From Chromera velia (Eukaryota; Sar; Chromeraceae), in NCBI GenBank assembly GCA_018398765.1, contig JAHBMJ010001987.1, forward strand, positions 1-35,000: a stretch of 35,000 nt of DNA, read 5' to 3'. Every line of letters starts with the position of its first letter. Positions within the stretch are counted from its first letter, which is position 1. This document shows, one piece after another, positions 2,538-34,666 of the stretch. A model generated the notes under the pieces. That model saw only the letters and a list, made by a program, of their open reading frames with translations. It was not told where the DNA came from and did not search any database. A program made the position numbers and the translations under genes.

Positions 2538-2855
2538 CCTTAATGAATTGGGAGTTGAATTGGGCGTCGAATTGGTAGTACTACCAATTTTTTACCGCCA
2601 GTAACTCCTAATTTTGAAAAATTGGTACCTAGTCTAGTGAAAGAAGTACATGAAGTTTGAAGCTAAAATTTTGTGTACGGGTTAGACAGGGGCTCACTAG
2701 TCTCTAGCCGCAGTCATTAGACTCTAATTCATTACTAAGAACAAATTCTATGAACACTTAGAGTCACCTAAAAATTGGGAGTTACCAATTTTTAAATAGG
2801 AATTTTTTAGGACCGCCGAAAAAAAAATTGGTAGTACAAAAAAAAAATGGGACTC
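2538..2855 (+). repeat. Left terminal inverted repeat of the 2.46-kb transposon
   Basis: Inverted copy of 4673-4994. It is AT-rich and studded with AATTGG/CCAATT words. The inner end degenerates into poly-A interrupted by TTGGTAGT. Confidence 0.85.
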
Positions 2856-3589
2856 AACTTGAAACTTTTGTTTTGTATGTCATAGTGTACCGCTAACGCA
2901 ATACAAAACGGACAGTGGACAGCTCTACACAAGCTGCACGTACCAGTACAAAAAACAGAGCGAAAATCGATCTAATTGACCATGTAAACCTACCAAAATT
3001 CATAATCCCTCCATATGCCGGACAGTGGCTGCTGATTTTTGTTCAGATCATGCTCCTCTTTCCCAAACATCTCTCACTTAATGGTTCCCAGACGTCTCAA
3101 ATGGAGATTATAGTCCTTCTTCTTCTCCTCTGATAGATTTTGGGGGGGAACAACATGGGTGTACTGAAAAACGACCAAAGAATCATCTAGGAAAATTCTG
3201 ATGTCTGCATTTTTTCTGTGATTATCTGTGAGCTCTTTTAGCTCCAAAATCTTCACGGTGAACTTGACATCTCAAAACATTGCATGAGCGATGTTCAGCT
3301 CTCTCCCTACAGTGAATCTCTCCCGAAACTCGGTGGGGATAACAAATCCATCCTTGTCCATTTCCTTTGACCTCTCCCTGTGTCGGCTTTGTGCGACCAT
3401 GGTTGCAAAGCACTGGGGAGGAGGGGGGCACTGACAAGAACTTTCACTTTTCGATTTCTTCTTTTTTTTTCATTCTTTCCCTTGATCTGTTTCGTTCTCT
3501 CTCCCACCTTAAGGTTTACGGAGACTAGCAGCTGCCGACTGAATTGAGCCTGCCGCAGCGGTAACAGACGACTCGGGGACCCCTTCTTC

Positions 3590-3907
3590 TTACTTCTGTT
3601 TGAGGGTTGTCTGCATATCTTTCAGGAGTAAGAGATCATTTAGACGGGAAAGACGTGCTTTCTCTCTTTCAAGAGTCTGAATTTTTTCCTCTACAACCCC
3701 TAGATCACTCTGAAATAACTCTTCTTCCTCTTTCTTTCCCTCCTTTTTTGCTCTTTCAATCTCTGTTCTGAGGGATTCTCTTTGTTCCTTCACAACCTGA
3801 AGGGCCTGAAAGACTTTGATCTTCTCTCTCAATCTGATTACTTTTCTTTTCCATCCTGCGGTCCGTTTAACATGATATTTTGCATATCGCAGACGAGCGT
3901 GAAGCAA
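3590..3907 (-). CDS. Coiled-coil, lysine/glutamate-rich transposon protein fragment
   Basis: A 105-codon frame inside the inverted-repeat transposon. The middle is a clear heptad-like charged helix: repeated E/K runs with leucines, for example EQRESLRTEIERAKKEGKKE and VVEEKIQTLEREKARLSRL. The N-terminal part is basic (KYHVKRTAGWKRKVIRLREK). Layouts with a coiled coil after a small DNA-binding domain are common in transposases, but no zinc-finger residues are visible here. It points away from the plus-strand transposase-like frame; the two are separated by only about 30 bases, so it may be the second gene of the element or an antisense piece. The function is not recognised, and it could be part of a decayed larger frame. 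Confidence 0.4.
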   Translation of the reverse strand: MLHARLRYAKYHVKRTAGWKRKVIRLREKIKVFQALQVVKEQRESLRTEIERAKKEGKKEEEELFQSDLGVVEEKIQTLEREKARLSRLNDLLLLKDMQTTLKQK

Positions 3908-3939
3908 AAAAATAGCTGGGACTTTTTTTTGTTTGGGCA

Positions 3940-4559
3940 GTGAATGAGAAGAAGCTCTTTCAGATGGAGGAATTGAATTCGTTTTTGTTTGATTCAGATA
4001 TGTGGCGAAAAACAGGGCTGCCCCCTACTCAGTGGGTCCGAGGGATTCCGAAAAATAATAGAAAGATTAAATTGGGGGCTGCAGATGTCAGACACGTTTT
4101 CCCTCGTATGGTTGAGTTCATGGAAAAAAGGTGCCCGGACATTTTTGTTGCAGAGAACCCTCCTGCTTGTTTTTTTTATAGTTGCATTCGTGGATCCTTT
4201 CCACGTTGACAGGTTCAATCATGGATGAGAAACTTGCAGAGCTGAAGACGGTGATAAAGACTTGGCAAGACCTTTTTTGCAAGTCTTATGGGTGGGCGGT
4301 CCTGAAGATTCACTTCTACTCGCACTTCCCAGTGTGGATCCACCGGTTTAGGGGGTTGAACACAGCGAAATGCTACGGCTTTGAATCGTATCATAAGAAG
4401 GTTTGCAAACGTTTTGTCCTACAGGGGGGACGTTATTCATATGATGGTTTTATTCTGAAAGATCTGGTTTTTGCATGGTTGTGCAAGAGAAAGAAAGCCA
4501 TGCAAGCATATTTTACCGATGTGCAGTGTCACGCCAGGAGGGACTTCGAGCATGAATAA
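3940..4559 (+). pseudogene. Transposase remnant (CACTA/Plavaka-like C-terminal region), frameshifted
   Basis: Two overlapping plus-strand frames (3940-4209 and 4182-4559) together look like the C-terminal half of a DDE transposase. The second frame contains KIHFYSHFPVWIHRF, then about ten residues later GFESYHKKVCKRF. That fits a K-x-H ... H-x-P-x-x-I-x-RF pattern followed by a Glu-Ser-x-His-K block, which I associate with CACTA-superfamily (Plavaka-type) and related transposases; the Glu would be the catalytic one. The first frame (LPPTQWVRGIPKNNRKIKLG) is not recognised. The two frames overlap out of register around 4182-4209, so either one indel broke the gene or a small intron is present. 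The catalytic Asp residues are not visible. The family assignment rests on one motif and should be treated as tentative; the location inside long inverted repeats supports it. Confidence 0.5.
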
Positions 4560-4672
4560 CACTATGAAACTATATAAAACTTATAGATTGATGAAGTTCT
4601 ATACAGCCGCAACACTGTTCTATTACAGCGTTCTTTCTTTCCACATATACTTTACTTTCTAGGAGAAGTTAT

Positions 4673-4994
4673 AAAATTGGTAGTCAAAAAAAAAAATTGG
4701 GTGTTGATTTTCTTAAAAAATTGGTAGTTAGTCCTAGAAAAAAATTGGTAACTCCTAATTTTTAGGTGACTCTAAGTGTTCACAGAATTTGTTCCTAGTA
4801 ATGAATTAGAGTCTAATGACTGTGGCTAGAGACTAGTGAGCCCTCGTCTAGCCCATACACAAAATTTTAGCTTCAAACTCCATGTATTTCTTTTACTAGA
4901 CTAGGTACCAATTTTCAAAATTGGGAGTTACTGGCGGTAAAAAATTGGTAGTACTATCAATTCGACGCCCAATTCAACTCCAAATTCGTTAGGG
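4673..4994 (-). repeat. Right terminal inverted repeat of the 2.46-kb transposon
   Basis: Inverted partner of 2538-2855. Substitutions such as GGGTTAGACAGG against GGGCTAGACGAGG show that the two arms have diverged since insertion. Confidence 0.85.
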
Positions 4995-10697: not shown

Positions 10698-13600
10698 ATG
10701 AGTTCCAAAAAGACCGAAACCTTTGGGCTGGTCGGGTCCTTTCCCGGAGACTCGGAGGCCTTGGAGACGGCAAAGAAACTCTCAGCGAGACTGAAGGATG
10801 CAAGGCAGCACTCCAGTGTGTCTGTGGACGAGTGCGTGGCTGTCCTGCAGTCTCTCCCCTTCAATGGCCGCTTTGCATTTTTGGGTCAGTGAGTCTCCCA
10901 GCTAGTGAGGTGAAAAAAGGACCAAACCTCCAGCGAGTGAGGGCCGTCTCTCGACCTGCAGAAGAGATGCACGCTCTCCCCGGCCTGCATGTGTGTCGAA
11001 CTGATCTGGCGTTCTTTTGGATCGTTTCATTCCTGCTCCTTTCTGTGTCCTCTCCCAGTCTTTTCGTCTGATGTGTCAGCCCATGCCTCCAGGACCTTTC
11101 CGCTTCTTTCACCTTCTGCCATCAGCATGTGGGATACAGAGAATGATACACCCCCTTTGTGCCTTTCTCTTTCCTCTTTGCAGCTGAAAGTCTTCTCTCG
11201 AGTCCCTCCCTCGACCGACTCGCTCGGGGTCTCTTCGCGTGGGCGTTCCAATCTGGAGACGAGGAGGAGGGGGACGACGACTTCATCATTGTCGGACTGG
11301 GAAGGGCGGCAAAGACCTTGGTCTCGCACAGGTCTGTCAGACAAGACAGAGGGGACGCTCGCAGGGAGGGAGGGGGTGGTTGACAGTGGAAGCTCTATGC
11401 TGTCTCTTCCCGTTTGTTGGACCCCGGCATGTTTTCCTTCTCTCTTTCCTTTTGTTGGACCCCGGCATGTTTCTTTCTCTCTTTCCTTTTGGACCCCGGC
11501 ATGTTTTCCTTCTCTCTTTCTTTGTGGTCCCCGGCATTTTTTCGGACTGTTACGACGGAGACATGCAGAGACGTCTGACATTGGTGTTCAGGTACGCAGG
11601 AGAAGGAAAAAAAAATCTCTTCTCCCTCCGTCTCCTCCGTTGCGTCTGTCTTTGTGTGTATGTGCAGGCAATTTGCCCTGCAGTGCCTCCTTCCCCTGAT
11701 CCCAAAGCTGAAGAAGACCGGCGTGGACCTCTTTGAAGAGTACAGAGCGACCACCAGCACGGCCTTCCTTACTCAGTTCCTTCGAACAATGGTCAGCTGG
11801 CAGTCTTGTTCTGTCTCTGTCTGCCGAAACCGTGCGTGTGTTTTTGAAAGCAATTGATCCCCTTGTTTGTCAAATTGTGGGTTGGGAGAAGAGAGACACC
11901 GAGGGCCAGTCAAAGGTCCTGCAGGAAACGGCACCCTTCTTCTCATTCAGATCCGCCCCCCCCCTCTCTTCTCAGGTGTCCCTCCCCACCGCGGAGTTTC
12001 CCGACGCCACCCTCAAGTCTGTCTTCGACTCCTGCGTGACCTCCGCAAGGCAGACGATCCTCTCGCAGACCCTCAAAACCCACCACAGGGCCCCCTTCCT
12101 GGCCTCCATCCTCAACGAGCCTGACGTTCCGAAGGCAACCGCTGTCTACCTGTGTCCCCCCGACACCGTAGAGAAGCACGTGACCGTATACGGCAAGAAC
12201 CAGACACCCCCCACCCTCTGTTTGTGGAAGAGGAACGCACCCATTTATCTGCAGATGCTCAGAAAGTCAGTCGATCATTAGCATCAGAGAAGACGGGAGG
12301 GCAGCAAGCGCGGACTTTCTGTGAAAAGAAAAGAAAAAGACAGAAAGCAGCACAGAGCCCTGAGCACTTTGGACGGACCCTCACGACCCGCGCCTCTCTC
12401 TGTTTCTTAGACTGAAGGATTGACGGACTTCCAGACACGCTGGTAGGCAAGAAAAGAGAAAAATGGGCAAACACATGTAGAGAAAAAGACAAGACAAGCA
12501 AGACAGCCAGCAGACCTTGTATACTTAGACTGAAGGATTGACGGACTTCCAGACACGCTGGTAGGCAAGAAAAGAGAAAAATGGGCAAACACATGTAGAG
12601 AAAAAGACAAGACAAGCAAGACAGCCAGCAGACCTTGTATACCATTTCGTGTTCCCTTCCTCACCTAAATGTTTGCAGAGAGATGACCGCCAAGAAGCAC
12701 GACCCCCTGGCCAGAGGTACCGCATTCAGAGCTTTTGAGGGCAGGCTCCCCTCTGCCAAGCGGAAGGGCAAGGAGAACGACCCTCTGGGTCCTGAGAACG
12801 CCCTGGAGATCTTCCGCATCGTTCAGGAACATCGTCCTTTGGAGATGTCGGGGGGAAGCTCTGCGGGACAGTGGCAGCTGCAGTCTTGGTCCTCTCAGGG
12901 CAAGCTGTCGGTTGACGAGCTGATCAAGTATGAGGGCGTGAAGCTGTGTGTGCCCGGTCAGAGGGTCTTGAGTGAAATCTCCGACTCCGCCCGTCTTCTG
13001 TTGTTGAACGAGTTCTTTGATAAGGGAGGCGGTGTGAAGGGCTCAGGTCCCTTCTTGAGGGAGGAGACCCCCCAATTCTGCTTCAAGAACCTATCGCAGG
13101 TCCCCATCACCAAAAGTGCAGCTGCTGCCCTGGTCAACTGGGCGTGTGATCGTCTCAAAGAGTTCCCCTCTGCGGCTGTGTGGGACTATCTTCGGTCGAA
13201 GGAACCCCAAACACCTCAGGTCGGTAGAGGGAGGGTTTTGCTGATCTCATCATGAAAAGGGGTGTTTCGGCCCTCTTGGCCCAGGAGTGTTATTTCGTTT
13301 TCGGAAATGTAGATGTCAGGCAGGGAAAAAGAAATCGTTGCGCGGGTGGGTCTCTGACCTTCCTTCCTCTCCTCCCTCTCTTCCTTCTGGTATCACATGA
13401 TTCTCTCTTCTGTGCTTTGAAGCCTTGAGCTTTCCGCATTGACTACAGCCTGGATAGGGCAGAGCTTGAAGGTGAAGGACTCTTTCAACAGGCAGTTCAG
13501 AAATGCCATTCGATTATGACTGACCTTTGCTTGCTTCTTGCATGCAGATGGTGATGCTGGGCGGAATCGAGCAGCTGCTCTCGAACATGAAGTCCGACAA

Positions 13601-22833: not shown

Positions 22834-24378
22834 GCACCCGAGCTTAGATGATCGAGAAAAGAGACTGAGAAGACGAGAGGTGTTTGTCTGTCTGAGGTCA
22901 GAGAAGGAAGGAGAAGACAGCTAGGAGGACAGAGACTGAAAGCGCATGAATGGGAGGGCCCTCAAGTTTGAGGGGGTTGGAGCAAAAAGCTGGTGGAGTG
23001 CTTTCATCTGGGAAGCCCTTTTGAGTTGTCTGCCGTACGTAACTGTTTCTCTCTCTGCGTTTGTTTGAGGCTTTCATCCTGAGGCTGTCTCCGTGTCGAA
23101 ACTACAGCGCTGATTAGACGTATATCATCAGCTAGATCATCATTCAAGAGCCGTTTCCGGGCAAACTGAACAGAAACCTGTATTTGTATCGTTTCTGCCT
23201 GTCCAAAGTGTTGTCTCGGTGCTCCTAGCGTTCCTCATGTCAGAGTGGAAATCCAGCAAGGATTAGTAAACCACCAGCTGCCGAGCATCAACATCAGGAA
23301 GTGCGATCGAAAAAACGGGTCTCAAAGCGTGGTTACAAGCTTTAGAAATCCAGTTGCGGCAAAATTGACTAATAATGACTTTGACGTACTTTGACGCACT
23401 TAGTACTGCTTGCACTAGTGCTTGCATGCATGCGGGTACCAATAAATCTCTTATTAGACGCAGGAACGCTATGCCTAAATTGCAGCCTAATCTAACAACT
23501 GGTCTAAAAAAATAGGCGTTAAAACTTGAACGTTCCAATTTTTTAGTAATTTTTTATGTCAAATTCATGCAACCGCGATTAATAATTTGATTTAAGTTCA
23601 ATTTATACAATTACAATTTTTAATTTTATGTAGTGATCGTGATTTACCATAAGGTACTAAGGGTAAATGATTTTCTTTTTTTTTTTGTAATGTTGTATGA
23701 TTTATTGTTTTTCTAATACTATAGTTCCTATATAAATCTTTCAAGTTCATTTACGAAAGTGAAGGAATACGTGAAATTCGATTAAAAAGCTAGGTTTTTA
23801 AATAAGTTTTTAAACTAGTTTTTGACAAAAACCTAGGCGTAGGCCATTAAAAAAAAAAAAAACCTAAAAAAAAAATTTAAAAAACCCTCGAATAAAATTT
23901 ATTTACAAAAATACCCCCCCTGCAAAAACTAAAAGAGGCTCAAACAATTTAAGACCGGTTTTAAGCTTCTAAAACCCCAACGAGTTTTTTTAAAATACTT
24001 TAATATGCATGGCCCGGGTGACCAAAGAGTGTTTGTCTACCCAGGTGCGTACCCAGGAAGCGTGCATAGTACAAAAACAAGCACTGCGTACCTCAGAGAT
24101 TTGACGCAGTCATTGGACCTCGCCACAACCTTCCTTAATTGTACTGCGGCAGACCTGCAAATAAACAGAGGGGCAGGATTCATGCAGAGACGCTAAAACT
24201 GTCTATGCACGACCTTCGATTGGAATAGATGCGCAACAACCTTACCCTTTTCTGGACCACTTCGGACTTAGTTCATGAAGAAGGCAGACCTAGTGAAATC
24301 CTATCGACATGCCCCATTTCCACTCTAGACCCCGCTCTCACTTTGCGCTCCGCCTCTGCTCTGCAGCCTGGTCCCAAA
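22834..24378. other. Spacer after the HEAT-type gene
   Basis: The 3' flank of the HEAT-type gene, then from about 23520 a very AT-rich stretch with poly-A/T runs (for example 23851-23882). A minus-strand open frame at 23263-23538 has no recognisable features. No RNA gene is seen. Confidence 0.5.
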
Positions 24379-25067
24379 ACAGAGTGGACTCCAAAGTAGG
24401 ACTTAGTGGAATTCAAAGTGACTTTTAAATTTACTATATTCTAGCTTCATTATAAAGTAAAACTAGGTTACTTAAAGCAATCTAAAGTTTTTTAGAGCAT
24501 TTAAAATCGTTACTTCTGTGCAAATCTGCTCACATGTGCTCAAATCTAAAGACTGGTTGATTAGCTAGGGTGCATGGTGGGAAAAATTACGATTACCGCG
24601 GCATGTGGAAGTTAGTGAATATTACCTATAAAGAAATACACAGGCACAACACCAATGGATACGCTCAACAGCAACGTTTAGCGCCGCCAATCAAGTACAA
24701 AGAATTGCTTCTTCTACAAGGGAAACAGTGCAGGAAGGAGGGCTTCACAGCCAGGCTGGTCAGACCGGACAGGAGGTGGTCAGCAGGGGTCGGAGAGGAT
24801 TCCAAAGAACAAAACACAGAGACAACATAATTCTATTCACAAAGAACTCACACTACATGGCGTAAAAGCATTCTACGTGTGTCAATAAGAAACTGTGAAA
24901 AAGAAGGACAGGTCTGTAGGTAGATCCAGATGTTCAGAGGGAGAGCAGTACGGAATGCCACAAATGAGAAAGGATGAACGAGTAAGGAGCACTTACATTG
25001 GGATAGTATGGACCACTTTTAAAGACTGACACACATAGAGCAAGTGGAAGACATTCAAATGCATGAA
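24379..25067 (+). repeat. Inverted repeat arm A
   Basis: Paired with A' at 26971-27663. It carries an open frame at 24570-24830 whose counterpart in A' (27217-27432) is also open. The two differ at many amino-acid-changing sites, so coding is doubtful. Confidence 0.9.
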
Positions 25068-25771
25068 TTTGAAAGCTGAGCGATTGGTCTGGGTAGAAAA
25101 ATGTCTGGCACGACTGAGAGCTATGCAAAGCTTCAGAAGAGGCAGTCAAAAAATGGAGACTCTCCATCGATCCTCTCTTAGTGACCTCCCTTGTGCGTTT
25201 CTGTCAAGCTCCTAGCAGAACAAAGAAGCTGAATGCTAAGCAAATCATCATACAAAGCGAGAGAGCACGCCGCACTTCCTTAACTGACCTGCAGGTGTTC
25301 CCAAGTCTCCATCCACCAACACCTGCAAACATGGAGAAATAGGCGTTCACGCTTTGTGCAGTCAAGGAAGCACTTCTGTCCAGCTTATTCTGCACGCATA
25401 AGGTTCCAAAGAAACAACCAAGAGCCTAAGAAGCAGCGGGTCCGGATAAGCTGACCTAGGGGTTGATCCTGGGGCTCCCAAGACTGTGACCTGCAAGGAA
25501 AGAGTAAGGAGAGCGATGAGGGCAGCAGTACTTTAATATCTAAATAAGGCTGGCAACCCTTCCCCGCTTGAATAGGAGGAACAGCAGCAAGCAGAAAGAT
25601 GTTGGAAACAAGACTAAAACGGCTGGTGTCCACTGGACCCACCTCCAAGCTCCACTTCGTACCGACCCGAGGTGACCCAGCAACACCCATCTCGTCCAGA
25701 GCCCCGAAAGTGCACTCCCCCTAAAAAAATCAAAACCAAGAAAACGCTCTGTCACACATCTTCTAAAACCA

Positions 25772-26108
25772 TTAGAAAACATCTGACAGAGCACTTTTTG
25801 TGGTAACGTTTATGTGGCAAAAATCCGTTTGCTCAGAGGTTCAAGACTCCGCAGTTTTAAACCTGTAGACCTTTAAGAGACTTCAGACCCGATTATTGGC
25901 CGACAGAGGCAAAGTTGGCTGTGTGCGTCGAAGGGGCAGGGTCCCCTCTGGCCCCGTGGCGGCGCCTCTCAGACCCATGATGAGCCTATGTCTGGACCTG
26001 GCGGCGGGGGGGTTTGACCCCCCTTGCCCAAGGTTCAGAAGTGCGGATTTCTGAACCTCAGGGGGGAGGGGGGGTATCCGACCCAACTCGAGGTCCCTGA
26101 CCCAAAAC
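25772..26108 (+). repeat. Repeat R, copy 1 (empty-site copy)
   Basis: Inverted copy of 28887-29701. It begins TTAGAAAACATCTGACAGAG and ends with TCGAGGTCCCTGACCC. At about 26026-26035 it keeps the uninterrupted TTGCCCAAGGTTCAG, where the other copy carries a 459-bp insert. It contains small palindromes such as AGGTTCAGAA ... TTCTGAACCT. Confidence 0.85.
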
Positions 26109-26130
26109 ACTCACAGAACACGTTTCTATA

Positions 26131-26616
26131 AAACTGGAAATACAGACAGTCACTGAGTATATGCATACAGCGTATGCATGACTGCTGTGAAGTGAAATAA
26201 ATTCAATCTTCCAGTCACTGTGTGGTGGTACCAGCAGACTGTATAGTATGTGGAGTGTTCGTCTGAAGGGCTTCCGCCCAGAGCTACTGTGTACAGCTTC
26301 CTCACTGTAGCTCTGTACCGTATATGTGTTCCTCAATCACCAGTACGCCCCCTGAAAGACCCACATCCTGATCCATGTACCTGATGGAGCGGCCCAGTCT
26401 GGCACCGTGGCTAGCCCACGTGCATACATATACATTGATGCGTCATGCGTGATCATGCATGCATGCAATTTGAGCAATAGATTCAGAGTCACAGAATTCA
26501 GTTGATTTACAACGAACAATCGGATGTTGTAAAGACACACAGACTTACAGTCTTGTTAAGACAAGACCCGGCTTCATGTAACTGAGCTAGCAGAGCCCAA
26601 AGGTATCTAATTCACA
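26131..26616. repeat. Direct repeat D, copy 1
   Basis: Same orientation and about 486 bp long, matched by 28387-28875. Shared blocks include CAGACAGTCACTGAGTAT, AGGGCTTCCGCCCAGAGC and GATTTACAACGAACAAT. It lies 22 bases from R1, just as D2 lies 11 bases from R2. Confidence 0.9.
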
Positions 26617-26853
26617 TTAGTGCAATCCCAGGCAGGGCAGACAGTCCCGCAAAATTGGGGTTCTGCTTGAATAGAAACATTGAAGTCGATATCCCTCTCT
26701 ACATATACCAAGCGCAACTCAATTTGGCACGATTACAATTGTGATTGCAAATGTGAAAAAGATTTTTATCATGCAAACAGTTTTTTAAGACTTGTGATAT
26801 GTTTTTGATAATATTTGTAAAGTCTGTACAAATTTTTAAGTTCGTACGCACCA

Positions 26854-26951
26854 CCGATTACGTTTGCGAAAAATATGAAAATTCAAAGTTAGGATTCGTT
26901 TTCCGGGGCCGCCCGACTTTGAATTTTCATATTTTTTGCAAACGTAATTGG
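26854..26951. repeat. 36-bp-arm hairpin at the inner edge of arm A'
   Basis: Arms 26854-26889 and 26916-26951 are inverted copies with about two mismatches (core ACGTTTGC and AAATATGAAAATTCAAAGT), around a 26-base GC-rich loop. A' begins 19 bases further on. Confidence 0.85.
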
Positions 26952-26970
26952 TCATGCGTGCCTGCGTGCT

Positions 26971-27663
26971 TTCATGCATTTGAATGTCTTCCACTTGCTC
27001 CGTGTGTGTCAGTCTTTCAAAGCGGTCCATACTATCCCGACGCAAGTGCTCCTTACTTATTCATCCTTTCTCATTTGTGGCACTCTGTACTGGTCTCCGT
27101 CTAAACATCTGGATCTACCTACGGACCTGCCCTTCTTTTTCACAGTTTCTCATTGACATATGCAGAACGATTTGCAAGCTTTTGCACTGTGTAGTATGAA
27201 TTCTTTGTAAAAAGAATTATGTTGTCTCTGTGCTCTGTTCTTCGGAATCCTGTCCAACCCCTACTGACCGCCTCCTGTCTGGTCTGACCAGCCTGGCTGT
27301 GAAGCCCTCCTTCCTGCACTGTTTCCTTTGCAGAAAAAACAATTCTTTGTAGTTGATTAGCGGCGCTAAACGTTGCTTTTGAGCGTATCCATTAGTGTTG
27401 TACCTGTGTATTTCTTTGCAGGTAACATTCACTAACTTCTACGTGCCGCGGTGATCATAATTTTTCCTACCGTGCATCCTAGCTAATCAACCAGTCTTTT
27501 GAGCATATTTGAGCAGATTCGCACAGGAGTAACGATTTTAAATGCTTTAAAAGGCTTTAGATTGCTTTAAGCAACCTAGTTTTACTTTATAATGAAGTTA
27601 GAATATAGTAAATTTAAAAGTTACTTTGAATTCTACTAAGTCCTACTTTGGAGTCCACTCTGT
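26971..27663 (-). repeat. Inverted repeat arm A'
   Basis: Inverted partner of 24379-25067. Its outer end directly abuts the gag-like reading frame that starts near 27664. Confidence 0.9.
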
Positions 27664-27705
27664 TCAACCTCCTTTGGCAAAAGGAAAGATGAAGACGACA
27701 GAGGA

Positions 27706-28263
27706 GTGATGGAGACGGGACCGCTGAAAGCAGTCCTGAAAAAGGTAGTAAAGAGAGGCGAGAAAACCGAGGAAGGAGAAGAGAGGGCAGCGAAAGGAAG
27801 ATTCGCTGGGTCGGGGGGGAAGAGCAACGACTCGGACGACGATACAGAATCAGGCGTGAAACCGATTTTCAAGTCTATCCTCGATCGCCTCGCAAAGAGA
27901 TGTATGAGATGTGTGGAAGAGGGACATCATCAAGCGTCCTGTTCCTATTCTGATGACACGATCGCAAGGTAGATGGTGAACGCAGCAGAGTTCAGAAAAA
28001 AGAAATGGACAGAGAGGGAGAACGGAAAGGAGAAGAAAGAAAGCAACAAAGTGAAAGAGAAGGAAAAGGAAAAGGAGAAGGAAAGAGGAAAGGATAAAGG
28101 GGGGAAAGCAAAACTTTCCATCAAGAGATTAACCTCTATCTCCTCGATTGACTCCTATAAGAGGTATGGCAAAATGTGGAAATCTGACTGTGAGTCTCTC
28201 ATTGACTCAGACAAGAGTACAGATGAATGGGAGGCACTCAAGCGACTTGTCAAGAAGAGATGA
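27706..28263 (+). pseudogene. Gag-like frame with CCHC zinc knuckle, split by one TAG
   Basis: One frame runs from a start near 27709 to 28263, broken only by a TAG at 27970-27972. The first part is acidic then basic and ends with CMRCVEEGHHQASC, an exact C-x2-C-x4-H-x4-C zinc knuckle as in retrotransposon gag/pol proteins. The second part is a strongly charged K/E run (NKVKEKEKEKEKERGKDKGG) followed by a Ser-rich segment and a stop. The frame stays open upstream to the border of repeat A', so the N-terminus may have been cut off by that insertion. No protease or reverse transcriptase is visible. Either it is a decayed gag, or the TAG separates two parts of a domesticated or non-autonomous element protein. 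Confidence 0.5.
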
Positions 28264-28386
28264 TGAAAAGGTTAACAGCAAGGATGGGGGGTGAATTGAC
28301 CTTTTGTCTTTTATTGGAATTTGCTCACCCAGTTTCAGTGTACAAGCTTGTTTTCGAAAGGCCATTGCGCTTGGTGGGTGAATGTG

Positions 28387-28875
28387 AAACTAGAAATGCA
28401 GACAGTCACTGAGTATGTGTATGCAACGTGTGCATCACTGCTGTGAAGTGAAATGAATTCAATCTTCCAGTCAGTGTATGGTGGTACCAGTAGATTGTAT
28501 GGTATGTGGAGTGTTCGTCTGAAGGGCTTCCGCCCAGAGCTACTGTATACAGCTTCCTCACTGTAGCCCTGTACCGTATGTGTTCCTCGATCACCAGTGC
28601 GCCCCCTGAAAGACCCACATCCCGATCCATGTACCTGATGGAGCGGCCCAGTCCGGTACCGCGGCTGGCCCACGTGTATACATATACATCGATGCGTCAT
28701 GTGTGATCATGCATGCATGCAATTTGAGCAATAGATTCAGAGTCACAGAATTTGGTTGATTTACAACGAACAATTGGATGTTGCAAAGACACACAGACTT
28801 ACAGTCTTGTTAAGACAGGACCCAGCTTCATGTAACTGAGCTAGCGGAGCCCAAAGGTAGCCTATCTAATTTACA
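28387..28875. repeat. Direct repeat D, copy 2
   Basis: Direct copy of 26131-26616. It differs by substitutions and small indels (for example CACATACGG against CACATATACGG), enough to break any shared reading frame. Confidence 0.9.
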
Positions 28876-28886
28876 GTTTCCTGACT

Positions 28887-29701
28887 GTTTTGGGTCAGGG
28901 ACCTCGAGTTAGGCCGGACACCCCCCCCTCGCCGAGGTTCAGAAGTCCGCACTTCTGAACCTTGCATGCTGGGGGCGAGTGGGGTGCTTTTTGCCCCCCC
29001 TTCTGCATAGGAGACCGGTGCTTTTCCGCAAAAAACTCGTTCTCATAATTGGTAAGGAGTTAGAAACTGAAACTTTATATAAGAAGACGTTATAATCATA
29101 GGAAAAAAACTATATAGAACAGATTGTTTATATCATTTCTAGAAACATAGGCTGCCATACAAATTATGTGAGTTTTATACCGTTTTTTTTATTGTTAAAA
29201 ACTGTTAAAAAATGGCCTAAAACTCATAAAATTTGTATGGTAGCCTATGTTTCTAGAAATGATATAAAAACTAGTCTGTTTTATAGTCCTTTTTCTATCA
29301 TTTCAACGTCTTTTTACACAAAGTTTCAGCTTCTAACTCCTTACCAATTATGAGAACGAGTTTTTTGCGGAAATGCGCCGCTTTAGGGGGGTAAAAAGCT
29401 CCCCACTCGCCCCTGGCATGCGCTTGGGCAAGGGGGGTCAAACCTCCCTGCCGCCGCATCCAGACATGGGCTCATCGTGGGTCTGGGAGGCACCGCCACG
29501 GGGCCAGAGGGGGTGGCGGCACCCTGCTCCTTCGACGCACACAGCCGACTTTGCCTCTGTTAGCCAATAATCGGGTCTGAAGTCTCTTGTCCATCTTGAA
29601 GGTCCACAGGGTTCAAAACTGCGGAGTTCTGAACCTCTGAGCAAACGGACTTTTCCCACAGAAATGTTGCCGTAAAAAGCGCTCTGTCAGATGTTTTCTG
29701 A
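28887..29701 (-). repeat. Repeat R, copy 2, interrupted by a foldback element
   Basis: Inverted copy of R1 (25772-26108). Its two halves, 28887-28963 and 29423-29701, flank a 459-bp insertion. Confidence 0.85.
28964..29422. mobile_element. 459-bp foldback (near-perfect palindrome) element with CTT target duplication
   Basis: Left end GCATGCTGGGGGCGAG and right end (reverse complement) CGCATGCCAGGGGCGAG start a palindrome that runs almost to the centre near 29197. Inner arms include TTCCGCAAAAAACTCG, CATAATTGGTAAGGAGTTAG and ATTTCTAGAAACATAGGCT, with their complements. The duplicated triplet CTT (28961-28963 and 29423-29425) flanks it. The paralogous copy at 26020-26035 has the joined sequence with a single copy, which is the expected empty site. 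There is no coding capacity, so it is a non-autonomous, MITE-like element that depends on an unseen transposase. Confidence 0.9.
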
Positions 29702-31810
29702 CGGTACAGGCCTCTGTGTAGCGCCACTATTAGTAAGTTGGGAGCACACACACAGGCTTTTCAAATTTCTTCCGTTCATTAGGCAGCACCAATCTTGATA
29801 AGTTAGGTGCGCCTTTCTACCGTTCTCGATCTCTTCTCTCTTTTCATGATCCCGCTCTTTCTCTTTATTCTTTTCTTCTTCTTCTCCTTAATTCTTTCTT
29901 CTTTTTGTTTGATTTCTTCTCGTCCTTCTACTCTTCTTTATCCATTCTCTCCTACCGGGCGCCCTCACACAAAGTGAGTACTGAGGATTTCCAGGCGCTC
30001 TCACTGACTGTCATTTCCCGTCTCTTCTTTTTTTATTCTATGAAAATGGAAACACAGGAACAATGCGCACCTACAGTCAGCTCACTTGTTCTCTTCTTGT
30101 CTGGAGTCCTGTCCGGGCGACCAGGTGTTCTCACACCCTGCCGTCTCCTCTTCCTTCGTCGCTCTTCATGACACGCCACCTGCCTCCACGGGAGGCAGCC
30201 CAACCTCACAAGAGTCTACGCGAAAGGAATCAGAAAGACGCAGACTCGTGTCTTCATGCACAGGTCGGCACGACCGAAAGTGCGGTCTATGCTCTGTCTG
30301 CCTGTTTCCTTAGTCACCCCTTGTTCTATCGTGCCCTATCCTCTCTGGAGTCTACAGCAAGCAGCTCCTTCTCCCGAATCGGATTTGCGCAGGTCCCTAC
30401 ACAACATGACAAGATGACTGAGAGGAGCACGTACAGAAACACTTCCTCTGCACTCCGATCTCACGCGGGCTTTCCATCGATCTGCCGTGTTGAGTCCTCA
30501 CCATCAGACTGACAACAGTCCGAATTGACAACAGCGTCTCACCCTTTTCGGACTCACTGTTTCTCTTTTCCTTCCTTCGCTCTCGATTCACAGAGTCACC
30601 TGCCTCCCTCTCCTTCTATTTCTGTGGAAGCAATCTTTAGAGAGCTTCTCAGGGGACCAGAGAGAGGTTTTCCATCAGCACGCTCGATCTGCCATCAACG
30701 AGGCCTTCGTTCAATCTCATCTTCCTGAGGTTTACATTTCAGGGAACACTAAGTCTTCCGAGGCTGACAGAACCTCACACACAGCCTCGGCAGAGTACCA
30801 ATCACTACGGTGTTTTCCTCTTCCTCTGTGTTTCCATGGCAACAATCCACGTACACCAGTGGTCTGGCTTCATCTGGTTCTACCCTTCCTCGAAAAAAAC
30901 TTCTCTCTCTGTGGATCACCATTCACAGTCTCTTTCCACAGGCAGTTACATTCTCTTCAAGCACAACACTTTCTCTCGTGCGGCTCGCAAAGGAAGGACC
31001 AGATCAATCCATCAGATCAACTGTTCTATGGAAGCACCACACTCAGTTTGAACAGGGAGAAATCTGTGACTCCGTCTGCCTTGGATTGAGCCATCTGTTT
31101 GAACAAAGCTGTGCTATCCACCTGAAATGAAACCATAGCTAGCACGAGGCTCAGATAACAGATTAGAAAGTCTGTTCCCAGAAGCGTTCCCTAGAAGTCC
31201 TAATTCAAAGTCCAGTTCTCCTGATAGTCAATCTGGATGCCATGAACAAAAGCCGTCCTGAAGCTGTATCGATTGGAGTGGCTACAGGCGCGCGCGTTTC
31301 CGTTCGGTCCCGCAAGGCAGGCTCATGCATTCTCTCAATGCCACCGACCGGCCCACGCCAACGCTTAGAGGCGGCGCGGCCATGAGCATTCACGTCACAC
31401 GGTTGCTAGTCTCCCGACCAACGCCACCTATCATATCACATGTTTTGATTGATTGTTTAGAAGAATCTAGGAAATAAATCTAAAAAAACATAAAAGAATT
31501 AAAAAACCTGGCAGTATGATTTAGAGAAACACAATGGAGGGCCTTGAAGGCTTATATCTCAGAACCATAATGAGTTCTATAATAAGTTAGAGCTTGCATT
31601 ATACTACAGATGCAGATAAAAACCTAGATAAAAACATATGATAGAACTACCACATGCAACACCACGACGCCGTGACGACAGCGACGTGACCACGAGCATA
31701 ACTTGCAGCATAATCTCTCAGGCTTCCCCTGCTGCTAGCCCTGTTGCCACAAGTGATTGATGATTTCCTCATTGAATGCTTTCCCGCCATAACTGTTACT
31801 CTGCAGGCGT
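29702..31810. other. Long stretch without a supported gene
   Basis: 29815-29945 is a pyrimidine-rich (CTT/TTC) tract. 29950-31130 has mixed composition, with only short open frames rich in Ser, Thr and Leu that show no motif. 31190-31440 contains a short GC-rich patch (GGCGCGCGCG near 31288). 31440-31640 is AT-rich. The 3' UTR of the ankyrin/LRR gene should lie just below 31811. No tRNA, rRNA or transposon ends could be assigned. Confidence 0.5.
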
Positions 31811-34666
31811 TCACCATGTCACCCGCAGCCACGGGTGGTCTTTCAACCTCTTCTCGATCGACCTTGTTTGAAGAGCGTCAAGGGAAAGAGGGGTTCTCCC
31901 CAAGTGGATGGTAAGCGGTGTGCTGATGATGTCGGAGACTCCATCGGCAAGATCTGCAATGCCGATCAACAAAGCACCACACTCCGGGAGGAAGTACTCA
32001 CACTCTTGCAAGTACACTTCCTCCAACCCCGCCATCCCGCGCATCTCAAGGTTCTTGTGTAGGGCTCTGAGCACAGGCGCACCCACCCCTGCATTTCCAC
32101 TCAAATTCAGGACCCTCAGCCGTTCAGCATTCTTCAGTGATTTCAGCACGTCCACATAAGTGTGTGACTTCGTGTTCCTTAAATCGAGTCGTTCAAGCGA
32201 ACAAAGATGCGACAGACACCTTTCCCTACCCACTGCTTGTTCTTCTTCTTCTCCTGCATCCTCTTGCCCCTTTGATTGAAACGGCAATTGAGAAAGATAG
32301 TCGAGGAGACGCGCTAGGCGGCGTACCGCTGACGCATCGAAAAACTGCTGACCAGCAAACGAAATTTCACGCAAACGGCTCACGGTCCGTCTCACGAACT
32401 GTCGATACAGCCTTTTTACCCTCGCGACGTCCGAATTGTTCGTGAAGGTCTTTCCATCAATCACGCGGTCGAAATCCAAAGGAGCGGCAGGGGTCGGAGA
32501 GACGGTTCTCTCGTCCTCTATCTGTGCTCTAGGATCGGGACCAGTCCCGGTCGGAAGGTTATGGATCATTCGAAGAAACTTGAAACCTGTGAGGAAAGTC
32601 TCGAAGGTCGTCCAACCGCGTTGGTCGAAGGGAGCGCTGTTGTGTGCATCAGGGGGAGTGCCGGTAGATCGGAAGACGCGTGTGTGGGGGCTGCTGTAAA
32701 GGAGGTCTAGGCGACTGAGGGCTTTGTCAAACCTCTCCTGACTGAATTCGTTCTCCTCGTTTTCTTCTATCTCACCACTGTGACCCCTCGATCTCTGAGG
32801 AATGGCCATATAGTCCCAAAAAACAAATGTGCGATCTGACTTGTCCTTCCACCCCCACCAATGCCGCTCACACTCCTCCACCAAAAGACGGAGGTGAAAG
32901 AGGTTCGGGTCTGGGTGCTCTCTAGAGAGCCACCCATATGAGAGACACACAACCGTAAAGGCTCCACGTAAAGGACAGTCAAGCTGAGCAAACTGGTCTG
33001 CGCTATTCGTTGCGGCCTCGACATCTTCCCGGGGCATGCCTAAGCCTTGCAGCACGGATGGCACGTCTTGACGTCTCGGAACTGGCCGCCCTTTGTCAAG
33101 AAGGAAACGGAGCACTGAGAGGGGCCAGAGAGCGATGAAACGTTCTGAAAATGCGGTAGCGAGCGGCTTCCACTCTCTCTGCGTCTCTGCTTTGCTCTCA
33201 AACAGCTGCAAGACCTCTGTGTGTGTGTTTTGCAAGGCTAGTGAGATGGCACTTTCACCAGACTGCGAGGTGATATCTGGATCCCCACCTCCCTGCAACA
33301 GACAGGCGGTAACCTCACAATGCCCTTCCTCTGCTGCAATCATCAACGCTGTCCAGCCCCGAAAGTCCTTCGCGTTGACATCTGCTCCCGCACGAAGCAG
33401 CAGATCAACCACCTCATTCCAACCCTTCGCCGAGGCGGCCACCAGGGCCGTGCTTCCGTCCCCCCTCGTCGCATTGACGTCTACACACGCACGAATCAAC
33501 GAATCAACGACCCTTGCGTGTCCCCTCTCGGCTGCCACCATCAGCACCGGGCGGGTCTGCTGATCTTTCGCGTTTACATCTGCACCTGCGCGAAGCAACA
33601 AGTCAACCACCTCTCTGTCCCCATTTTCCGCTGCGAGCATCAGCGGCAACCCCCCAGCCCTCCCCTCTACGTTGACATTCACACCCGCACGAATGAGCAA
33701 ATCAGCCACCTCACAATGTCCCTTCTCCACTGCAGACATCAATGCAGCCCCCCCAACAGCAGCTTCTGCGCTGTGAATTGAACCAGCACGAATCAGCAAA
33801 TTGACGACCTCACTGTGTCCGTTCTCCGCTGCAACCACCAACACCGCCCGCCCTTCCCGATCTTTCACGCTCACATCTGCACCTACACGAATGAGCAAAT
33901 CCACCACTTCTGTATGTCCTTTCGTGGCCGCAGCTATCAGCGGCATCCCCCCGCCCCCCACGAAGGGAAACCGTGCGTTGACATCTGCCCCCGCACGAAT
34001 CAACAAATCAGCAGCGACGGCCTGTCCTCTCTCTGCTGCACATGTCAGAGCCTGGGTGAGGTCTCCACCCCCACGAACCAGTAGTCCCTGTGTCCCTTCT
34101 CTGCTGCAATCATCAACGCTGTCCGGCCCCCAAAGTCCTTCGCGTTGACATCTGCACCCGCACAAAGCAGCAAATCAACTATCTCTCTGCTACCCTTCTC
34201 CGCTGCAACCATTAAATTCGTTCTGCCGCCCGTCCAACTTGCTCTCACATCTGCACCCGCACGAATGAATCTGTGCATGGACCAGCCTGCCGTCTCCCCG
34301 TGAGACTGCATCTCTCAGGTGTTGGGAGGCTGTGATAATAGCCTCAGTTGCACCTTCACGCTGCCCTCTGCTGCGAGCAGATGCCGTCAGGATACACCAC
34401 CGAGAGCGTCCAACAAAACTCCCAATGTCAATCCCATCGCAGTTCTCCCTCCCACCTCCCGTGATGATATTCTTCCGCCTTCCTCTGATTCCAGCCCCAC
34501 TCTCTCCTTCAGGCCTGTAGTCATTGTGTGCTTGTTCGGCTGACAGCTCAGCGGGAGAAGGCAGAGATACAGACTCACCTACCCTCTCATTTCGGGCGCT
34601 ATTGGAGACGGCCGAGCCAGAGGAGATCTCCGCCCTGCAGCGACCACCAGTGCATGAAGCTCCCAT
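31811..34666 (-). CDS. Ankyrin - SHRW-like domain - leucine-rich-repeat protein (NLR-like layout), with a frame-shifted or intron segment
   Basis: Exon model by eye: 34666-34283 joined to 34087-31811 (886 aa), with a 195-bp GT-AG intron; alternatively two compensating frameshifts. The first ATG of the upstream frame gives MGASCT, which fits an N-myristoylation site (G2, T6) with a possible palmitoylated Cys 5. Counting residues of the long frame from the TTG at 34165: ankyrin repeats at about 28-330 (about nine, each with DLLIRAGADVNA and AAEKGH-type motifs). A domain follows at about 400-530 with VVCLSYGWLSREHPDP, TFVFWDYMAIPQ, RFDKALSRLDLLY and QRGWTTFETF. I know this pattern (SHRW / DY-x-x-PQ / RGW-x-x-FE) from uncharacterised algal and stramenopile proteins. 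Leucine-rich repeats come last, at about 650-765 (CSLERLDLRNTK, AERLRVLNLSGNAGVG). Between 34282 and 34088 the frame contains a TAG (34190-34192), while another frame there encodes two perfect ankyrin repeats. The role is unknown; a sensor or recognition protein is inference. Confidence 0.7.
34088..34282 (-). other. Ankyrin-coding segment in a shifted frame (putative intron or frameshifted block)
   Basis: In gene sense it starts GTCCATG after GGCAGGCTG and ends ACACAG before GGACTACTGG, so GT-AG borders exist and splicing would keep the frame. Yet the segment encodes RFIRAGADVRASW, EIVDLLLCAGADVNAKDF and RTALMIAAEKGH, good ankyrin repeats, in a frame shifted from both flanks. Confidence 0.55.

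Follow-up and report, generated by a model that had tools for sequence, protein, structure and literature searches.

Positions 28963-29422 of the window, the whole 35,000-nucleotide stretch of Chromera velia DNA that was analysed, are very probably a non-autonomous foldback MITE that inserted into segment X of one copy of a larger palindromic repeat, and the uninterrupted copy of X in the same window (R1) keeps the empty site, as do others. The family is best read as a foldback MITE that is old and apparently an orphan, mobilised by a transposase of the cut-and-paste type that would make cuts staggered by 2 bp with little sequence preference. Fixed inverted ends, a duplication of fixed length, a clean empty site and dispersed copies together make up the anatomy of a cut-and-paste element moved in trans. 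The original prediction of a foldback transposon with its empty site preserved is thus upheld by a dispersed family, its fixed ends and the uninterrupted R1. The element comprises the following features.

28963..29422, plus strand: foldback MITE copy of 460 bp, the consensus of the family being 455 bp, ends set against 39 other copies
28963..29188, plus strand: left inverted arm, inner limit approximate, from inverted repeats and the terminal consensus
29207..29422, plus strand: right inverted arm, inner limit approximate, from inverted repeats and the terminal consensus
28961..28962, plus strand: CT, 2-bp target duplication on the left side, from family comparison, single in the host repeat
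29423..29424, plus strand: CT, 2-bp target duplication on the right side, from family comparison

Ends, structure and target duplication of the element

The assembly searched comprises 178 Mb in 4040 contigs, and its 58 matches to the chlorophyll-binding family are those of a photosynthetic eukaryote. A whole-genome search with positions 28964-29422 reported 84 matches, a number that counts both strands because the element is palindromic, and 40 copies were scored out of 347 first-look candidates. Thirty-nine further copies were taken with their flanks and, together with the window copy, were compared side by side. The family is a non-coding palindrome of ~455 bp with fixed ends (CGCATGCCGGGGGCGAGTGGGG), dispersed through the genome; across the 40 copies it ends in CGCATGCCGGGGGCGAG... 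and the complement, the inverted ends are of the CGCATGCCGGGG type, and the terminal sequence is CGCATGCC. In the window copy the first base has mutated from C to T, so that it starts TGCATGC against CGCATGC in the family, which places the limits at 28963-29422 and makes CT the duplication.

Both ends lie within 6 mismatches in 38 of the 40 copies (L044 and L046 were dropped), and in 34 of these 38 the flanks are identical over exactly 2 bp, compared with none over 3 to 6 bp. The remaining four (L009, L021, L023 and L027), which count against the MITE reading, carry one mismatch, at the first base of the 2 bp only. Fourteen kinds of dinucleotide are duplicated among the 34 exact cases, most commonly AA (8) and TA (6). 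At 37 sites the AT content is slightly raised, to 62% within 20 bp from 57% at greater distance. This fixed-length 2-bp duplication accompanies the MITE and is missing at empty sites.

An element of 459 bp with GCATGC ends and a 3-bp duplication, CTT, had been proposed from the window alone; the 39 other copies correct both its length and its end. A transposon with a 3-bp target duplication, Harbinger-like, would account for CTT being single in R1 and double in R2, but we regard it as almost certainly wrong: the genome search with flanks listed, suggested earlier as a check, gives a 3-bp match with the family ends in 0/38 copies and ends that differ from those claimed, and the apparent CTT arises because its third base, the additional T, is really the element's own first base, mutated in the window copy and taken for a duplicated one.

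The strong palindrome originally noted at 28964-29422 is borne out by its arms and by its predicted folding energy, which for the single strand of DNA is -175.7 kcal/mol, where 100 shuffles average -42.8 (z = -32). Arms, folding and consensus agree that inverted repeats span nearly the entire element. Compared with its own complement, the window copy shows 79% identity, and the arms of the consensus differ at 5 of 185 aligned positions, with 11 additional gap columns. No frame of at least 150 aa, stop to stop, overlaps 28963-29422, and no structured RNA in the window matches Rfam at gathering scores. No host function of the element's own is apparent.

The host palindrome and its empty site

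The insertion lies within a composite of nested repeats.

24378..25067 and 25068..25767, plus strand: outer arm and inner arm, respectively, of the large palindromic repeat
25768..26113, minus strand: R1, inverted and uninterrupted, a copy of host segment X whose empty site is 26031-26032
26122..26126, plus strand: GTTTC, left target duplication of the LTR retrotransposon
26127..26616, plus strand: 5' LTR of the retrotransposon splitting the large palindrome (TG...CA ends in relatives, TA here)
28383..28875, plus strand: 3' LTR of the same retrotransposon
28876..28880, plus strand: GTTTC, right target duplication of the LTR retrotransposon
28882..28962, plus strand: host repeat segment Xl, left of the insertion
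28935..28962, plus strand: small hairpin AGGTTCAGAAGTCCGCACTTCTGAACCT, belonging to the host repeat and not to the MITE
29423..29705, plus strand: host repeat segment Xr, right of the insertion

The uninterrupted target ascribed to R1 is indeed there, with the same flanks as the occupied site. Host-repeat junctions were examined in 22 loci, cut at the first listed places of the hairpin motif, and in R1; once 5 short secondary matches had been excluded and any place covered by overlapping loci was counted a single time, all 21 distinct readable junctions (21/21) are without insert and read ACCTTGGGC or a variant by one or few bases. In most copies the halves of X overlap by 2 bp where they join, and these are the 2 bp duplicated. 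R1 might instead be the product of precise excision from a formerly occupied site, an event named originally as one that would undo the prediction. Precise excision is traceless, so R1 by itself is uninformative, and nothing was seen in favour of this explanation; since every readable host-repeat junction is uninterrupted, the empty state appears ancestral, and excision is both unneeded and highly improbable.

The insertion lies at the very edge of a 28-bp hairpin, from which it had been proposed that the MITE targets hairpins and that the site was picked for the one next to it. This, too, is very unlikely, and hairpin targeting was rejected as a general rule on the following comparison. When 38 empty sites were rebuilt, the longest hairpin arm found within 40 bp had a mean length of 4.66, and in 296 control windows drawn from the flanks of the same copies that mean was 4.78 (permutation p 0.76); an arm of at least 8 occurs in 1/38 sites, that of the window, against 12/296 controls. 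The hairpin belongs to the host repeat and adjoins the empty site in other copies as well. Its motif has 213 forward and 212 reverse matches genome-wide at up to 2 mismatches, many places being palindromic and hence counted on both strands. The hairpins of X consist of GGTTCARAA, an 8-bp asymmetric core and TTCTGAACC (in the window at 28936-28961, 29610-29635 and 26032-26057), and two of them stand 211 bp apart in several intact copies; X itself is found in both orientations. We take this layout to resemble, by analogy, the core sites of site-specific recombinases.

The original description of a repeat R present twice in inverted orientation holds for one part of a composite: 25768-26113 is inverted relative to 28882-29705, and the next part, 26131-26616 and 28387-28875 (~490 bp), is a direct repeat, namely two LTRs. 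The direct segment is identified as an LTR by TG...CA ends, equal 5-bp flanks and GTTTC around the window pair. Thirty-six LTR candidates were found genome-wide, with TG...CA ends in many copies; among copies in which no interior was detected, the 5-bp flanks are identical in L071, L080 and L089 and differ by one mismatch in L076. A frame between the LTRs (27901-27942) reads CMRCVEEGHHQASC, with the zinc-knuckle spacing usual in Gag. The retrotransposon with this Gag-like motif thus occupies 26127-28875, ~2.7 kb. Comparison with other copies suggests that a stretch at ~26706-27664, ending exactly at an outer end of the large palindrome, has replaced part of its interior. Several LTR copies directly abut MITE sequence, and one MITE sits within the interior of an LTR element (L074, L075, L079, L084, L072/L077), a mutual nesting.

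The most plausible reading of R1 and R2 is that a single larger palindromic repeat, with these as its two arms, was split by the LTR retrotransposon; this would explain why an occupied and an empty site stand in one window. If the LTR element is left out, the centre in the window reads CACTCACAGAACACGTTTCCTGACTG; the unsplit copy L068, in which X inverted and X direct are joined by a 14-bp centre, reads CACTCACAGAATATGTTTCCTGACTG, with two differences from the window centre. Arm, mid and X co-occur in this order in other repeat copies, X being the inner part. Three findings stand against the two-arm reading: the right half of the palindrome ends at 29705, without outer arms beyond it; a copy of the outer arm (26971-27664) lies inside the LTR retrotransposon; and X in R1 and R2 is ~85% identical, no closer than many copies elsewhere. 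Given the first two, the two-arm reading rests on the shared centre. The larger palindromic repeat forms a family of its own (L048-L069; in the window 24378-26113 and 28882-29705) with ends AACAGAGTGGACTCC, arms of ~1.4 kb (arm plus mid), a central X in either orientation and one side often truncated. No frames of at least 150 aa were seen in 24378-27664. Flanking CAA in the window and ACGA in L051 are candidates for the larger palindrome's own duplication.

Three further features of the window lie apart from these repeats. An inverted-repeat element at 2538-4994 has arms at 2538-2801 and 4732-4994 that are 92-94% complementary, with ends CCTTAATGAATTGGGAG/CCCTAACGAATTTGGAG; a perfect tandem duplication of 118 bp lies at 12406-12641; and on the minus strand 31811-34174 holds a 787-aa open frame with ankyrin repeats, whose best match is an Ankyrin-1/Ankyrin-2 chain.

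Family history and the search for an autonomous relative

The family size is roughly 200 copies, from a left-arm tag that at up to 3 mismatches matches 112 + 89 = 201 times genome-wide (0 for a reversed-pattern control), a count in which a few copies hold the tag in both arms and from which more diverged copies are missed. The tag occurs in both orientations ~350 bp apart at G000:C3552:29650-30033 and G000:C3791:24184-24580, and L038 consists of three MITE pieces joined head-to-tail. Identity to the consensus within the element ranges from 92.1 to 96.7%, with a mean of 94.8%, over 38 aligned copies (L038 and L044 left out), and is 92.5% for the window copy. Since the copies differ from the consensus by 3.3-7.9%, the burst that gave rise to them was probably not very recent. 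Comparison of 80 flanks gave 11 similar matches, the flanking sequences being for the most part unrelated, so that most insertions look independent. Complementary changes common to both arms of one copy number 39, against a mean of 30.8 and a maximum of 45 in 200 shuffles, which gives no clear signal of arm-to-arm conversion inside the copies. The contrast between the closely matching arms of the consensus and the 79% self-complement identity of the window copy suggests that the two arms of a copy have diverged independently after insertion.

An autonomous relative with the same ends, which the original prediction had proposed to look for, was not found by pattern searches with a 22-bp end, the inner arm edge and a 17-bp end. 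The 22-bp end followed by positions excluding the MITE interior, at up to 2 mismatches, led to 5 places, all of them variant or deleted MITE copies, and the inner arm edge followed by positions excluding the loop led to 1 place, a half MITE. When up to 3 mismatches were allowed, the 17-bp end was located at 11 places (2 for a reversed control); BLAST found no MITE homology in these 11 loci, and a scan for a partner end in two of them (L105 and L106) found no autonomous element. The loci inspected were ~3 kb each, and the patterns are blind to an autonomous element that shares fewer than ~17 terminal bases, or that shares the end plus the sequence just inside it. Domain searches gave 0 matches to PF02992 (Transposase_21), which is no proof of absence as there were 0 in control genomes too, and 2 matches to PF13359 (DDE_Tnp_4); at neither DDE_Tnp_4 locus does an end with fewer than 7 mismatches occur within the 3.4-3.5 kb inspected.

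Because no transposase-bearing element with matching ends was found, mobilisation in trans is something we infer. When the MITE entered segment X in one copy of the larger palindromic repeat, a cut-and-paste transposase acting in trans would have recognised its inverted ends and linked them to target strands with cuts staggered by 2 bp. The source of the transposase may have been lost, may be too diverged, or may be missing from the assembly.

Relation to known superfamilies

The terminal 17 bases are printed in no paper of the open paper library searched, and the family is an ordinary but unnamed small palindromic element. The analysis supplies exact ends, a duplication length and an internal empty site for it, which helps repeat annotation and opens no large question. 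It also illustrates how nested palindromic repeats mislead, as the apparent 3-bp duplication and the hairpin target both vanish on family comparison.

CACTA-type ends are the hallmark of CACTA/CMC elements; the ends here do not begin with CACTA and read CGCATGCC, and in this respect the family does not fit CACTA/CMC. Among the other superfamilies, ISL2EU duplicates AT within AATT (PMC4482050), Tc1/mariner MITEs duplicate TA (PMC10045372) and Harbinger elements have a 3-bp TWA duplication (PMC4482050, PMC10045372). The duplication fits neither ISL2EU nor Tc1/mariner, with AT duplicated in 2/34 exact cases here and TA in 6/34, nor PIF/Harbinger, with 0/38 at 3 bp.

An autonomous member present in the genome may have escaped detection, in which case the family would derive from one of the known superfamilies that make 2-bp duplications, CACTA/CMC or ISL2EU; we consider this possibility real if rather doubtful. 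The 2-4 bp duplications given for CMC in PMC4482050 and the two DDE_Tnp_4 matches favour such a derivation, but the rarity of AT speaks against ISL2EU, the ends are not of CACTA type and the two DDE_Tnp_4 loci have no matching end in the stretches inspected. It is distinctly unlikely that the family, with its variable 2-bp duplications and its ends, lies outside the tested eukaryotic superfamilies and owes its movement to a transposase, in this algal lineage, that is undescribed or has gone unrecognised.

Likeness to described systems is partial in each case. The 2-bp duplication is shared with ISL2EU of the PHIS group (PMC4482050), although the dinucleotide is fixed as AT within AATT there and variable here; with CACTA/CMC MITEs (PMC4482050) the short duplication is alike and its length fits, but the ends differ; and with Tc1/mariner MITEs (PMC10045372) the 2-bp length is alike, but TA makes up a minority of the duplications here. 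The introner elements of Amoebophrya (PMC7789003) were considered as an analogue. The Tm1 MITE-like group of root-knot nematodes (PMC3169594) resembles the present family in that its copies are dispersed and have long inverted arms, a paralogous site lacks the element and the targets show no clear consensus; it differs in that Tm1 has mostly 9-bp duplications and some of its members encode a putative transposase, whereas here the duplication is 2 bp and no such member was found among the loci inspected.
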